Below are positions 23,754 through 64,000 of a stretch of DNA of 64,000 nt, in pieces. This stretch comes from Cloeon dipterum (lineage: Eukaryota > Arthropoda > Insecta > Ephemeroptera > Baetidae). Positions within the stretch are counted from its first letter, which is position 1, and each line of letters begins with the position of its first letter. The translations under genes were made by a program, and so were the position numbers. The notes under the pieces are model-generated. The model searched no databases. It was given only the letters and a program-made list of their open reading frames with translations, and had not been told where the DNA came from. The DNA lies in NCBI RefSeq assembly GCF_949628265.1, contig NC_088790.1, forward strand, positions 24,556,545-24,620,544, given 5' to 3'.

Positions 23754-23769
23754 GGCCCTGAAAAGGGCC
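23754..23769 (-). terminator. Histone mRNA 3' stem-loop (copy 1)
   Basis: Minus strand reads GGCCCTTTTCAGGGCC: a 6-bp stem and 4-base TTTC loop matching the consensus GGYYCTTHTHAGRRCC, followed by ACCAAATA. It begins 49 bases after the TAA of the H3-tail-like gene. SLBP binds this element to direct U7-dependent cleavage without poly(A). Confidence 0.85.
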
Positions 23770-23818: not shown

Positions 23819-24109
23819 TTATTCGCTGTCCTGCTGTGAGCCAGAAGACTCAAACTCTTCATTCGTTATCTGGAACACCTCCAAATCCACGAAAATCTCT
23901 TGTTCTTCGTCTGGAGGACGAGCAATTTCGGTCCGCACTGCAGGTGCAGGCGTTATCTTGATCGTCTCGAAAATAACGAAAATCTCTTGTTCTTCGTCTG
24001 GAGGACGAGGAACCTCGGTCCGAACTGCAGGTGCAGTTCTCCTAGGTGGCCTGACATAGCCTCCCGTTGACATCCTCGCAGTCAGCTTTCGACGCTTTGC
24101 TGGAGGCAT
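23819..24109 (-). CDS. H3-tail-like mini-protein with K9M (copy 1)
   Basis: The intronless frame encodes 96 residues. Residues 1-17 read MPPAKRRKLTARMSTGG: a basic nuclear-signal-like start, then the histone H3 K4-G13 tail (K-Q-T-A-R-K-S-T-G-G) with Q5 changed to L and K9 to M. No histone fold follows. A YVRPPRR linker leads to a proline/acidic region made of two 29-residue direct repeats (each beginning APAVRTE and containing RPPDEEQEIFV) and an ITNEEFESSGSQQDSE end. The start is taken at 24109 because a longer in-frame ATG at 24214 lies upstream of a TATA box. A perfect histone stem-loop lies 49 bases past the stop. Expression is therefore probably S-phase-linked and SLBP-dependent. K-to-M at H3K9 traps SET-domain H3K9 methyltransferases in known systems; a similar decoy role here is inference. 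Confidence 0.6.
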   Translation of the reverse strand: MPPAKRRKLTARMSTGGYVRPPRRTAPAVRTEVPRPPDEEQEIFVIFETIKITPAPAVRTEIARPPDEEQEIFVDLEVFQITNEEFESSGSQQDSE

Positions 24110-37099: not shown

Positions 37100-37115
37100 G
37101 GCCCTGAAAAGGGCC
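37100..37115 (-). terminator. Histone mRNA 3' stem-loop (copy 2)
   Basis: Perfect GGCCCTTTTCAGGGCC on the minus strand with the ACCAAATA flank, 46 bases after the stop of the H3-tail-like gene. Confidence 0.85.
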
Positions 37116-37161: not shown

Positions 37162-37353
37162 TTATTCGCTGCCCTGCTGTGAGCCAGATGACTCAAACTC
37201 TTCAATCGTTATTGTGGACGTTTCCAAAACAACGCGTATTTCTTCTTCATCCTCTGAAGGCCGAGGATTTGGAGCTGGAGGCTGCTTGTGTGGCCTGACA
37301 TAGCCTCCCGTTGACATCCTCGCAGTCAGCTTTCGACGCTTTGCTGGAGGCAT
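37162..37353 (-). CDS. H3-tail-like mini-protein with K9M (copy 2)
   Basis: 63 residues, intronless. The first 21 are the same as copy 1 (basic MPPAKRRK, then LTARMSTGG and YVRP). After that comes a shorter HKQPPAPNPRPSEDEEEIRV region and the common ETSTITIEEFESSGSQQGSE end. It has only one acidic module where copy 1 has two. The start at 37353 is chosen because the longer in-frame ATG (37458) lies before the TATA box. Upstream promoter and downstream stem-loop are both intact, so this copy is probably expressible. Confidence 0.6.
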   Translation of the reverse strand: MPPAKRRKLTARMSTGGYVRPHKQPPAPNPRPSEDEEEIRVVLETSTITIEEFESSGSQQGSE

Positions 37354-45130: not shown

Positions 45131-46569
45131 ATGTCTAATTTGCGGCCGTCAGCCCATTCAGGTCTGTGGCTGACTCCGGAGGCCCTGCCCAGGCTCGAGC
45201 TTTACCGCAGTCAATCTTTACAGAGTAAAAAGAAGCCGACGCTTGGAGAGCTGTACGAAGGGGTTACTGAGATTGAGGTTCTTCATTTCTGATGAATATT
45301 AAAACCAGATTTGACTTCTATTATTATTTTCTGCAGCTTTGGAATTAAAATAAATTGAAATTCGTCTTTTTCATGAAGCATATCTCACGATTTATGTTCA
45401 AAATTACTTTTATCTTGATCTCTTTCTTTTATTTTTAAGGATTTAAATCATAATAATAGAAAACATCAAAGGAACCTTTTTTTAAATTTAGCAAAGTAAT
45501 TTTTGGACTATTGCTCGTTCTACAATTAATCAATTTTTAACTATTGCCAACATCAAGGATTTGTTTTTCACTCTAAAATTTCACCTGGGTAACCTAAAAA
45601 AATTGTTTAAAATTAATAATTTCGTAACGTCCCCAGTCGTTTAAGCATAATTTTTTACTAAACGTCTCGCACTCCAATAAAATATTTATAATTCGAACTT
45701 AAAATTAGGAGGCGACCGATCCAAGTATTAAAAGTGAAAGCGGTCGCGAGATAAAGTTAGGATGGATCCAAGGAGTGCTGAATGCCGTCCTCCTGAACAT
45801 ATGAGGTGTTATGCTGTTTCTCCGACTCTCTTGGGTCGTGGCACAGGCCGGAATAGGCGAGTGTTTTTTATTTCTTTCAGACCATAAGTTATAACTGGCT
45901 CTCAATATTGTATTTGTAGAGTATTCCTTTTAATCTTTCTCTCCTATATAAGTTTCGGCTTCGCATAATAGAACCCTATTTCATGGATAATACAAATCCT
46001 TTTGTGAAATTACTATTTATTGTGAAGGCGAAACTTGTAGGAATTAATATTAAAAGGGGGTAGTTTTAAAGCAACGAAGGTGAAGTCAGTTTTTATTATA
46101 ATGGTATAAACCAACCTCAAGTGTCGCCACATTAATTATGAATTTTGCTTTTTGTAAAATTTTAGCTTTGTGTTTGGTCACCGTCGTATTTTCGGCCATT
46201 ATTTGCGTGATTACAACTCTGTCTATCTCCGCTCTGTGCACCAACGGAGAGGTGAAAGGAGGTTAGAAAATTGAATCCAATTAATTGTCCACCTGCAAAC
46301 ATTTATATTTCGAAGGAGGAATTTATTACGTAATCTTACGCACTCTCGGGGCAGAATTCGGTGCTTCGATCGGGGTTGTGTTCGCGTTTGCAAACACGGT
46401 GGCGGCTGCGATGAACACGGTCGGCTTCTGTGACGCGCTGATCACTGTGTTGCACGAGTTCGACATCAAACTCATCGACGGCGGCTTGCACGACGCACAA
46501 ATCTGCGCCACCATCTCCTTGCTCGTCATGATTTGCATCTGCATCCTCGGCATGGACTGGGAAGTCAAG
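45131..46569 (+). pseudogene. SLC12 NKCC-like cotransporter, 5' fragment I
   Basis: Four exons join in phase: 45131-45277, 45709-45856, 46166-46261 and 46316-46569. Exon 1 starts MSNLRPSAHSGLWLTPEALP and has the TLGELYEG motif typical of insect NKCC N-termini. Exon 2 is [36 protein letters not shown] (TM1); an in-frame TGA at 45802-45804 replaces the conserved Trp of NIWGVMLF. Exon 3 is TTLSISALCTNGEVKG. Exon 4 is GGIYYVILRTLGAEFGASIG to ILGMDWEVK (TM2-4). NKCC proteins import Na, K and 2 Cl across the plasma membrane. Intron 2 uses a GC donor (ATAG|GCGAGT). Coding homology stops after exon 4, where the 1.05-kb repeat begins, so this copy is a fragment. Apart from the TGA, the exons are open. 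Confidence 0.8.
45417..45930 (+). repeat. ~515-bp near-identical duplication, left copy
   Basis: Nearly identical to 47814-48327, including SLC12 exon 2 and its stop codon. A recent event, much younger than the divergence from the copy at 51710-52075. Confidence 0.9.
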
Positions 46570-46689
46570 GTAAATCTGATATTATTTGTTTTAAACTGAT
46601 TTGCCTCGTGCTATGCAACCGGCTAAGCACTGATGCTCGTCGTCTCAGTGTTCAACACTTCTACAAGGTGTTAGGAGATTTTTTTATTG

Positions 46690-47211: not shown

Positions 47212-47485
47212 GCTTCATTCATGCGGCGTTAATTTTTTTTTATTGCTTTAAGCGCTTTTAGTGAAAATATTTGGAACCCTGAAAAGGTCCGGTTTTTGGC
47301 GGCTTGCGTGGGAGGGTTTTGAAGAAGCAGGGATTATTAATTTGCTGCCCTGCTGTGAGCCAGATGACTCAAACTGTTCCTTCGTTATCGTGATCGTTTC
47401 CGCGAAACCGCAAATCCCTTCTTCTTCGTCTGGAGGGCGAGTATTTGGAGCTGGAGGCTGCTTTGGTGGCCGGAAATAGCCGGAA
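47212..47485 (-). pseudogene. Truncated H3-tail-like gene (copy 3)
   Basis: Minus strand from 47482 reads GYFRPPKQPPAPNTRPPDEE, EGICGFAETITITKEQFESS and GSQQGSK. The H3-tail motif and start codon are missing: homology ends exactly at the G-Y after the tail. The usual stop is lost (GAATAA changed to AAATTA). The stem-loop at 47275-47290 has decayed (GGACCTTTTCAGGGTT on the minus strand), losing base pairs. Decay of both gene and stem-loop here contrasts with their joint preservation elsewhere. Confidence 0.75.
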
Positions 47486-47489
47486 TAAA

Positions 47490-47813
47490 TATTTTTACTG
47501 AATATTTTATATGAACAACGCTTTATCGCGGTTGCTGGTCAGCGAGTGTAAAGTGCTTCAAATTTAGAAAAAACATCTTAAAGGAAGTCATGCTATGTTA
47601 GTGATTTTTACAGTGTTATTTAGCGTTTTCCGGAGAAGAACCATCTATATAAGACGGCCCCGAAATTTAACAAAATATATAACATCTTCGTTCACCCAAA
47701 CCGCATTAATTTTCTTGTCGTCAGTTGTCATAATATGAATTATGTTTTGCAGGTGGAAAAGTGCAGTGGGTGTCTTTTGTTCGTATTTTAAAATACATAA
47801 CAACTTCTCCATT
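47490..47813 (+). repeat. Partial copy of the 1.05-kb repeat
   Basis: Matches 42590-42930 and 50100-50450 (GTCATGCTATGTTAGTGATT and TTAATTTTCTTGTCGTCAGT landmarks). Confidence 0.7.
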
Positions 47814-48327: not shown

Positions 48328-49827
48328 TAGTTAGGCTAGGTACAAGGAGTGCTGAATGCCATCCTCCTGAACATATGAGGCGTCATGCTGTTTCTCCGAC
48401 TCTCTTGGGTCGTGGCAGAGACCGGAATAGGCGAGTGTTTTTTTATTTCTATCAGACCACAAGTTATAACTGGCTGGTTTTTAAAAATTTCAATGTTGTA
48501 TTTGTAGAGTATTCTTTTTAATCTGTCTCTCCTATACGTTTCGGCTTCACAATAGAACCCTATTTCATGGATAATACAATTCCTTTTTTGAAATTACTGT
48601 GAAGGCGAAACTTGTAGGAAATAAAATATTAAAATGTGTGAGTGTGGTGAAACAGACTTCAATGCGCGCGCGAGAATCATTCAGGGTCGCGTTCTCAGAG
48701 GTGATAACGCCTTGCACCCGCGCTTACAGCCACCCCCGACTCGCAGTGTTTTCGGCCAACGTGCATTTTCTTTCAGGGTCGTAAAACCCTGGAACGACTT
48801 GCCACCTGTGCTCAAAAACAGCACCGCCGCGCAATTCCCCGCTCTTCTGAAGCAGCAATTGTGGAGTGATTTTCAATTTTTAAAGTGTTTTGTGATCGTC
48901 CAAAATAGTGCTAAGTTAAAATTCGAACGGGCGCATCGCGACGACTACGGTCTGTTTTATCGATTTTTCGCTAGCTTTGTAGCCCTTTTTCATCTGTATA
49001 TAACCTGACATTGCATTTTACATGTATATTGACTTAGATGAAATTAAACAAATATAATAAATATAATAATAAAAGGAGTAAAATTTGAAAGCAACGAAGG
49101 TGAAGTCAGTTTTTATTATAATGGCATAACCAACCTCAAGTGTCGTCACATTAATTATGAATTTTGCTTCTTGTAAAATTTTAGCTTTGTGTTTGGTCAC
49201 CGTCGTAATTTCGGCCATTATTTGCGTGATTACAACTCTGTCTCTCTCCGCTCTGTGCACCAACGGAGAGGTGAAAGAAGGTTAGGAAATATAATCCAAT
49301 TAATTGTCCACCTGCAAACATTTATATTTCGAAGGAGGAATTTATTACGTAATCTCACGCACTCTCGGGGCAGAATTCGGCTCTTCGATCGGGGTTGTGT
49401 TCGCGTTTGCAAACACGGTGTCGGCTGCGATGAACACGGTCGGCTTCTGTGACACGCTGATCACTGTGTTGGACGAGTTCGACATCAAACTCGTCGACGG
49501 CGGCTTGCACGACGCACAAATCTGCGGCACCATCGCCTTGCTCGTCATGATTTGCATCTGCATCCTCGGCATGGACTGGGAAGTCAAGGTAAATCTGATA
49601 TTATATGTTTTAAACTGATTTGCCTCGTGCTATGCAACCAGCTAAGCACTGATGCTGGCGTCTCAGTGTTCAACACTTCTACAAGACGTAAATTGATTTT
49701 TATCAAGAAACTTTGAAGGCATATGGCAAATAAACACATTTTGAAACAATAGATTGTTCCAATTTTATTCAGGCACAAAATTTTCTGGTTGTAATCATTG
49801 CCGCAGCGATGGTGGACTTCACAAAAT
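48106..49827 (+). pseudogene. SLC12 NKCC-like cotransporter, fragment II
   Basis: Contains exon 2 (48106-48253) with the same TGA (48199-48201), and a second, diverged partial exon 2 (48331-48428) with TAG for the Trp of GWIQG as well as the TGA at 48376. A LINE fragment lies between these and exon 3 (49185-49280), exon 4 (49335-49588) and the start of exon 5 (from 49773, AQNFLVVIIAAAMVDFT). Exon 4 reads GGIYYVISRTLGAEFGSSIG and keeps the S-R-T-L-G form usual in the family, where fragment I has L-R. Exon 5 runs into the 1.05-kb repeat at ~49828. No exon 1. The splice sites of introns 3 and 4 are intact. Confidence 0.8.
48634..49075 (+). mobile_element. 5'-truncated LINE 3' end
   Basis: Open frame whose middle reads RSVFGQRAFSFRVVKPWNDL, then PPVLKNSTAAQFPALLKQQL. 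This is the conserved C-terminal end of Jockey/CR1-type reverse-transcriptase ORFs (F-x-x-R-x-x-x-x-WN-x-LP). It ends in a short 3' UTR and an (AATAT)n-like tail. It interrupts sequence that is continuous in fragment I (GAAACTTGTAGGAA...GCAACGAAGGTGAAGTCAG, 46028-46092). Only the last ~110 codons remain. Confidence 0.8.
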
Positions 49828-55534: not shown

Positions 55535-55550
55535 GGCCCTGAAAAGGGCC
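55535..55550 (-). terminator. Histone mRNA 3' stem-loop (copy 4)
   Basis: Perfect GGCCCTTTTCAGGGCC on the minus strand, ACCAAATA flank, 46 bases after the stop of the H3-tail-like gene. Confidence 0.85.
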
Positions 55551-55596: not shown

Positions 55597-55812
55597 TTAT
55601 TCGCTGCTCTGCTGTGAGCCAGATGACTCAAACTCTTCAATCGTTATCGTGGACGTCTCCAAAACAACGCGAATTTCCTCTTCTTCTTCGGCTGGAGGCC
55701 GACGAATTTCGGTCCGAACTGCTGGTGCAGTTCTCCTAGGTGGCCTGTAGTAGCCACCTGTAGACATCCTCGCAGTCAACTTCTTCCGCTTTGCTCGCTT
55801 TTCTTTGTCCAT
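55597..55812 (-). CDS. H3-tail-like mini-protein with K9M (copy 4)
   Basis: 71 residues. The start differs from copies 1 and 2: MDKEKRAKRKK (basic, nuclear-signal-like) replaces MPPAKRRK, and the upstream DNA is unrelated with no TATA box evident. LTARMSTGG then follows at residues 12-20, with Met16 at the H3 K9 position. Next come YYRPPRRTAPAVRTEIRRPP, AEEEEEIRVVLETSTITIEE and FESSGSQQSSE. The H3-like block is conserved although the sequence before it has been replaced and its codons differ silently from copies 1 and 2. Confidence 0.6.
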   Translation of the reverse strand: MDKEKRAKRKKLTARMSTGGYYRPPRRTAPAVRTEIRRPPAEEEEEIRVVLETSTITIEEFESSGSQQSSE

Positions 55813-62975: not shown

Positions 62976-63760
62976 TGAAAGCTAATAAAAATTGCTAATT
63001 TTTAATTGGTTTGCATTTCTATGTTATTTTGGAAATATAATTAAAATTGGGTAATATTAATATTAAAACTTTATTTATTTTATGGCAAGTCATACACATG
63101 ATGTCATTCTTCTCCAAAATGCAAGCTATCCATTGATAATTGCAAACATAACACAAGATTATACTATCAAAATTAATTACAAAAGAAAATGTCACAACTT
63201 TTTTTCATTTAAGACCTCCTAACATTTTGCCTTTTAACCTTTCTTGAATATTTTCATAAAGCTAAATTTCAATGAACTCTGTTAAAGATAAATTTTTCAA
63301 CGAAATAAATCATTGAAAAATACACTTAACTACTGTGAATGCCAGATTTTGAGGCACCGTTTATTTTTTGTGTTATGGTTAAACTGGTCTATTATAAGTT
63401 CTAAATATGAAGCAAATTATAACGCACAAAACTGGTATTGCCCGCGAATACCAGCAAGTTAGGAAAAATTCCCAGCCCCGCACACTTTATTCCGGAAATG
63501 GCCCATGCCTATTGAAGCTAATATAAAATAGCATTTTTCCGTGCACGATTTTCACAATTTATTTCTAAACGGGCATGAAAGAAACTTATTTAAATTTTTG
63601 GAAATACAGCTGTTATAGCAGGTTGGGATTCAGGGTAATTCAAAATAGCGGCCGCATTACCATCAAATTTAAAGCTATACCGGTGAACGATTTAAATGAC
63701 TGAAGCTTGTGTTTGAAAGGACCTGATGCTACTATTGCTTTTTGCGCTCTTAGCGGCAAA
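62976..63760. other. AT-rich spacer
   Basis: No supported gene. It separates the tandem array from the divergent H3-tail-like gene at the window edge. Confidence 0.5.
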
Positions 63761-63767
63761 ATTGGTT

Positions 63768-63783
63768 GGCCCTGAAAAGGGCC
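63768..63783 (-). terminator. Histone mRNA 3' stem-loop (copy 6)
   Basis: Perfect GGCCCTTTTCAGGGCC on the minus strand, 23 bases between it and the TAG of the divergent H3-tail-like gene. The flanks (AAATC before, AACCAATTTT after) differ from the other copies, so the stem-loop itself has been preserved. Confidence 0.85.
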
Positions 63784-63806: not shown

Positions 63807-64000
63807 CTAGACGCCTATTTGTTCACGTTCTTCTTCAGTCATGCTACGGACGTCTTCGATGTTGTGAGGTGAGTCGGCGGCGAGTGAGACCAAGCCCTCA
63901 AATGTTTGCTCTTGAGGAAGAGCGATGGCTTGTTCCAACGGCCGGGGACGATAAGGCCTGTACCTTCCGCCGGTTGACATCCTCGCTGTTTGTTTTCGTT
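63807..64000 (-). CDS. Divergent H3-tail-like protein with K9M (copy 6, partial)
   Basis: Its start lies beyond the window edge. The visible 63 residues begin RKQTARMSTGGRYRPYRPRP. Against histone H3 this keeps K4, Q5, T6, A7, R8, S10, T11, G12 and G13, with K9 as Met and K14 as Arg. The remainder (LEQAIALPQEQTFEGLVSLA, ADSPHNIEDVRSMTEEEREQ, IGV) is unlike copies 1-5 but is again acidic and ends the protein at a similar length. A faint match of EGLVSLAADS...IEDV to the H3 C-terminal AYLVGLFEDTN region is possible but not convincing. It is the copy closest to H3 and is not part of a full repeat unit, so it may represent the parental host gene. Confidence 0.65.
   Translation of the reverse strand, partial: RKQTARMSTGGRYRPYRPRPLEQAIALPQEQTFEGLVSLAADSPHNIEDVRSMTEEEREQIGV

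Follow-up and report, generated by a model that had tools for sequence, protein, structure and literature searches.

A histone-type gene family of Cloeon dipterum encodes H3-like tails with methionine in place of Lys9: candidate natural inhibitors of H3K9 methyltransferases

At least nine intact genes, clustered on a single contig of the Cloeon dipterum genome, encode small proteins with a near-exact histone H3 tail near the N-terminus, in which methionine occupies the place of Lys9 (TARMSTGG). Judged from sequence, we put at about 60% the probability that these proteins are natural, S-phase-coupled H3K9M-type inhibitors of H3K9 methyltransferases, acting on their targets as EZHIP acts on PRC2.

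The window, i.e., the whole stretch of 64,000 nucleotides analyzed, spans C5:24556545-24620544 of a 33.2-Mb contig in a genome of 190.1 Mb and 10 contigs. By eye, the right ends of contigs C1 and C5 resemble each other and their left ends share an AT-rich repeat (L064, L065, L069, L070); TTAGG arrays were absent from the 800 bases sampled at each of 7 contig ends. An exon that we read as Orco-like is in keeping with an insect genome. The frame K-Q-T-A-R-M-S-T-G-G, which the sequence-only reading had placed at 63807..64000, was confirmed: it runs on the minus strand from 63998 to 63810, with the stop codon TAG at 63809-63807, translates as RKQTARMSTGGRYRPYRPRPLEQAIALPQEQTFEGLVSLAADSPHNIEDVRSMTEEEREQIGV and matches H3 residues 4-13 save Met for Lys9. 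The start codon sought past the window edge is an ATG with its first base 7 bases outside (C5:24620551; region including the adjoining sequence, MPKRKQTARMSTGGRYRPYRPRPLEQAIALPQEQTFEGLVSLAADSPHNIEDVRSMTEEEREQIGV), preceded by TATAAA 76 bases upstream. With the adjoining DNA included, the 66-residue protein starts with MPKRKQTARM (N-terminus MPKRKQTARMSTGGRYRPYRP...) and its Met is in register with H3 Lys9. The initiator Met is usually cleaved before Pro, and its removal would leave the internal Met exactly at position 9.

That reading had also counted five relatives in the window, four intact and one broken, which is correct. The features are as follows (window positions, except for the last line):

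63807..64000, minus strand: gene KQ1, MPKRKQTARMSTGG..., 66 aa, ATG 7 bases outside the window; two near-identical copies in the cluster
63768..63783, minus strand: KQ1 histone stem-loop core GGCCCTTTTCAGGGCC, exact 16-base core, 23 nt past the stop
63734..63741, minus strand: KQ1 AAAGCAAT, resembling a histone downstream element, 26 nt past the stem-loop
59907..60122, minus strand: gene B2, MDKEKRAKRKKLTARMSTGGYYRPPRR..., 71 aa
59845..59860, minus strand: B2 histone stem-loop, exact core; passes the Rfam cut-off
55597..55812, minus strand: gene B1, protein the same as B2
55535..55550, minus strand: B1 histone stem-loop, exact core; passes the Rfam cut-off
47344..47508, minus strand: decayed copy D12, C-terminal homology only, without ATG or tail motif; stem-loop degenerate
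37162..37353, minus strand: gene A2, MPPAKRRKLTARMSTGGYVRPHKQ..., 63 aa; TATATA 72 nt upstream of ATG
37100..37115, minus strand: A2 histone stem-loop, exact core; passes the Rfam cut-off
23819..24109, minus strand: gene A1, MPPAKRRKLTARMSTGGYVRPPRR..., 96 aa, with an internal duplication; TATATA 72 nt upstream of ATG
23754..23769, minus strand: A1 histone stem-loop, exact core; passes the Rfam cut-off
C5:24623058-24623249, plus two further copies: tail-less paralogue N, MGENKEIEGNSNACNRYRLRRRRYQRL..., with a histone-type 3' end

An in-frame ATG upstream of A1 was dropped as its start; A2 has TTG there. Elsewhere in the window, two near-identical reading frames (46285-46599 and 49304-49618), presumably resembling an SLC12-type cotransporter exon, represent a local duplication.

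The suggestion that these genes form a family was borne out by whole-genome searches, in which copy numbers are lower bounds. At least nine intact TARMSTGG genes (three KQ, two A and four B) lie at C5 24.58-24.67 Mb, accompanied by at least three tail-less paralogues (N) and at least four decayed copies, and all copies found lie within C5 24.58-24.68 Mb. Matches off the cluster, at C3:33991925 (E 0.027, two stops), C2:34234760 (E 0.75, one stop) and C4:9681473 (E 1.72), were judged to be chance.

The KQ tail is identical to H3 residues 4-13 but for K9M, while the A and B tails agree with H3 at K4, 6-8 and 10-13, have Leu for Gln5 and are shifted by 3 or 6 residues. All nine genes carry, outside a histone, the target-site tail motif with the substrate lysine replaced by Met; R8, S10, T11, G12 and G13 are kept as well, and positions 1-3 are not H3-like. 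Among the copies found, Met is absent only from the decayed ones and from the tail-less N type. Genome-wide, the degenerate pattern TARxSTGG occurs at 23 places, and its reversed control at 10. Of the 23, 9 carry Lys (8 canonical H3 genes and 1 H3.3-like), 9 carry Met, all in the cluster, and 5 are others, including one TARASTGG with no histone context visible in 601 bases. This tally argues against a chance origin of the K9M tail. The eight canonical H3 genes found encode the ordinary tail, and the cluster genes encode the motif Arg as AGG. The earlier proposal to look in the genome for the K9M motif next to a histone stem-loop is answered by these 9 genes, each with an exact stem-loop. A K27M-type pattern was too loose to be informative (296 places versus 196 in the control), and none of 49 pattern matches in viral contigs was confirmed. 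The gene at C1:22103737-22104076 (L029, L030; Pfam Histone E 6e-29, two exons joined by hand) is H3-like but divergent, has a longer loop 1 and probably encodes CenH3.

The claimed histone-type 3' end holds for all 12 intact copies, N included. The genome contains 52 exact matches to the stem-loop GGCCCTTTTCAGGGCC and 0 to its reversed control; 13 of the 52 are in the cluster, where each of the 12 intact genes is followed by one and the decayed copy D13 by the remaining one. In 12/12 intact genes the stem-loop starts 23-49 nt past the stop and is followed, 25-26 nt further on, by AAAGCAAT (AAAGAAAT in N), so that each combines a frame without intron, a 3' stem-loop and a downstream element, as replication-dependent histone genes do. 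Around the canonical H3 genes (eight loci), exact AAAGCAAT was found within 50 bases after 10 of 18 stem-loops and, with at most one mismatch, after 17 of the 18 tested. The A1, A2, B1 and B2 stem-loops pass the curated Rfam Histone3 cut-off of 34 bits; those of KQ1 (25.9 bits, E 2.6e-4) and N1 (28.1 bits, E 3.9e-5) score below it. A TATA box was present in each of the five A, KQ and N genes tested, at 72-116 bases upstream of the ATG, and absent from the 160 nt before the ATG in both B genes tested. Stem-loop mRNAs of the histone type normally belong to S phase and carry no poly(A).

Exact stem-loops also occur at other places in the genome. At C5:2603081 (L054, C5:2600500-2605000), a frame that we take to be RNF146-like ends about 73 bases before one; it has RING-like cysteines and a WWE domain (Pfam E 5e-6), and adds a further non-histone gene to those that have a histone-type 3' end. 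A 199-residue frame with no Pfam match, macrodomain-like in appearance, ends about 25 bases before the stem-loop at C3:35107024 (L050, C3:35105500-35108500). The one at C4:32858379 (L052, C4:32856900-32859900) has a downstream AAAGCAAT and no clear gene in front.

The description of KQ1 as a small protein without a histone fold agrees with the Pfam searches, in which 7 family members gave no match at E<=1, and with the structure model. Whole A1, A2, B1 and KQ1 score against H3 at a level reached by 3-27 of 2000 shuffles, through the tail; their sequence after the tail compared with H3 14-135, like the whole N1 protein compared with H3, does no better than shuffles. A truncated H3 was accordingly rejected as their origin, since no detectable similarity to the H3 core follows the tail, and descent from an H3 gene is suggested solely by the tail and the 3' end. 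The AlphaFold2 model of the 63 in-window KQ1 residues, made without an alignment (mean pLDDT 69, pTM 0.23), weakly and at low confidence indicates an unstructured tail followed by four short helices. Among 60 of the 79 matches of a KQ1 sequence search against the PDB, the best was Psb27 (E 0.22-0.4), dismissed as chance; H3 chains appeared from E 0.75, mostly on residues 1-16.

Four Pre-SET matches above the Pfam cut-off were found in the genome. The Pre-SET gene with a chromodomain is read, from these two Pfam domains, as SUV39H; another is SETDB1 in our own reading of its translation, and a third is read as EHMT, with a Pfam SET domain and a weak ankyrin match below cut-off. In the published biochemistry, Clr4 is less active in vitro when an H3K9M peptide is present, and its SET domain, with SAM, binds this peptide more strongly than the wild-type tail; the G9a SET domain with SAM binds it too, and in the G9a-SAM crystal residues 3-12 of ARTKQTARMSTGGKA are ordered (PMC5030085). 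The stretch conserved in the cluster (T6-G13; K4-G13 in KQ) overlaps this footprint. EHMT1/GLP was enriched more on H3K9M than on the unmodified peptide, and for EHMT2/G9a binding of the two was about equal in one study (PMC9677696), so that enzymes differ in how strongly they bind. In fly embryos, overexpression of H3K9M leads to loss of H3K9me2/3 (PMC8116211). The cell effects of K9M described in these three studies come from whole H3K9M histones (PMC5030085, PMC9677696, PMC8116211); for EZHIP, the K27M-like peptide alone was enough to inhibit PRC2 in vitro (PMC6513997).

In the mechanism we propose, intronless stem-loop histone-like mRNAs would yield small proteins that display the H3 tail, with Met9 as pseudo-substrate, and enter the nucleus by means of their basic N-terminus. 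TARMSTGG would occupy the peptide groove of the SUV39H, SETDB1 or EHMT SET domain; as Met cannot be methylated, the SAM-bound enzyme would be held, and H3K9 methylation would fall where the genes are on. The action would take place in S phase, probably in the germline or early embryo. Expression of the family, as well as the nuclear entry, binding, tissue and biological role of its products, is what we infer in this scheme. An inhibitor function would agree with the H3K9M peptide biochemistry and with the candidate target enzymes in the genome.

Alternatively, the tail might serve as a decoy for another H3-tail binder (an H3K9 demethylase of the KDM3/KDM4 type, an H3S10 kinase or an importin), with Met9 merely escaping methylation, in which case H3K9 methylation would rise or stay level. 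The retention of R8, S10, T11, G12 and G13, residues touched by other enzymes too, speaks for it, as does the tight binding of a K4M peptide to LSD1. However, a kinase or importin lure would not need Met9 in 9/9 genes, the A1, R2 and T3 used by readers of the H3 N-terminus are not kept, and what is conserved overlaps the published G9a footprint (PMC5030085). We consider a decoy unlikely, and the overlap with the SET footprint, set against positions 1-3 that differ from H3, favors a pseudo-substrate inhibitor.

The layout of the cluster bears on a second alternative, a conflict gene family (drive, gamete competition or parental conflict) working through chromatin on any target, with fast birth and decay of copies. 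The order B-KQ-N is seen three times as a tandem unit with mosaic flanks. The types are related by duplication: the 3' ends of KQ and N are about 76% identical over 196 bases, and the upstream DNA of B matches that of KQ at 79-83% over 255-355 bases. All four decayed copies are without ATG and motif, in three of them the stem-loop is damaged, and one intact gene has an internal duplication. This pattern, and the precedent of EZHIP with its duplication, loss and diversifying selection (PMC12713659), support conflict, but tandem duplication by itself is common, and as a rival account it seems to us a little less likely than a decoy. It describes a biological role and is compatible with the inhibitor mechanism. 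A role driven by conflict, of the kind proposed for EZHIP, is suggested by the duplications, the decayed copies and the fast divergence outside the motif. A protamine-like protein that packages sperm or embryo chromatin and reuses the H3 tail is very improbable: the N-termini are basic and the mRNA ends histone-type, yet the C-terminal halves are acidic (EEEEEI..., EEEREQ) rather than arginine-rich, and packaging would not require an exact TARMSTGG.

Selection was assessed on changes within types. Pooled over KQ (4:1), B (5:1) and N (2:1), there were 11 synonymous and 3 nonsynonymous changes against a neutral expectation of about 78% nonsynonymous (binomial 1.2e-5; 2.5e-4 at a 70% share), indicating that these frames are selected. 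This opposes the scenario, raised in the sequence-only reading, of a random residue at the Met position combined with frameshifts. The A1-A2 pair was excluded from the pool, as their second halves align badly; outside the motif it has 12 synonymous changes (0.32 per site) and 23 nonsynonymous ones (0.18 per site), a weaker constraint. TARMSTGG is identical in 9/9 intact A, B and KQ genes, with silent differences between types in up to five of the 8 codons and 0 amino-acid changes; since Met has a single codon, silent change is uninformative on Met9 itself. Outside the motif, KQ compared with A/B has a share of 0.47-0.55 of its nonsynonymous sites changed, on a poor alignment in which the synonymous sites of these pairs are close to saturated (0.82-1.08). 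Fisher tests of nonsynonymous sites, motif versus rest, gave 5e-5 to 5e-6 for KQ versus A/B and 0.04-0.064 among A and B, and those of synonymous versus nonsynonymous changes, motif versus rest, 0.0085-0.014 for KQ pairs and 0.064-1 among A and B, for a motif chosen afterwards as conserved and for pairs that share sequences and are not independent. Neutral H3-gene debris amplified by segmental duplication, to which the tandem duplications, the decayed copies and the weaker constraint on A1-A2 would be congenial, is disfavored to the point of being barely credible by the 11:3 ratio, by frames, stem-loops and motif intact in 9/9 genes, and by the loss of the ATG as well from the four decayed copies.

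Counted against the inhibitor reading are the three intact N paralogues, which have kept the histone 3' end and have no tail, as well as the A1-A2 changes, the B genes without TATA box, the KQ1 and N1 Rfam scores, the about equal binding by EHMT2/G9a and the use of whole H3K9M histones in the cited work on cells. Histones with lysine changed to methionine are familiar from cancer mutations and as laboratory tools, and the literature search turned up EZHIP as the sole natural protein of this kind. The earlier statement that no natural protein of this kind has been described survives among the matches listed in this limited search, which covered few subscription papers; TARMSTGG appeared there in two papers, in each as a synthetic peptide. 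With slightly better than even odds, the family would provide the first natural H3K9M-tail inhibitor of H3K9 methyltransferases, made from S-phase histone-type mRNAs and offered as a pseudo-substrate while new nucleosomes are marked: an independently arisen insect counterpart of EZHIP, aimed at constitutive heterochromatin. If true, the same trick has evolved twice, against a different silencing system, and there is a genetic handle on a scheduled turn-down of heterochromatin in an animal. It also becomes testable whether a free K9M tail outside nucleosomes controls H3K9 methylation in vivo.

Among known systems, the non-histone substrates of EHMT share a short linear motif resembling H3 around K9; they are candidate substrates with a methylatable Lys (PMC10611923), in contrast to the Met of the cluster. 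The laboratory H3K9M histone has TARMSTGG in common with the family, and in peptide form it is an inhibitor of Clr4 and a ligand of G9a with SAM (PMC5030085), but it is an engineered, full-length and nucleosomal protein, whereas here separate genes without a recognizable histone fold are involved. The replication-dependent H3 genes of the same genome have the intronless frame, the stem-loop, the AAAGCAAT-like element and residues 4-8 and 10-13 of the KQ tail; the cluster differs from them in Met9, in having no detected H3-core similarity after the tail, and in being a minor tandem family away from the canonical H3 genes found. EZHIP (CXORF67), the PRC2 inhibitor of placental mammals, is likewise a non-histone protein with a tail-like motif and Met at the target Lys (PMC6513997), with duplications and rapid change outside the motif (PMC6513997, PMC12713659). 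Its peptide as given in PMC6513997 looks, by eye alone, unlike the cluster tail. The EZHIP motif is K27-like and that of the cluster K9-like, which implies other enzymes, and here a near-exact H3 tail near the N-terminus is combined with a histone-type 3' end.
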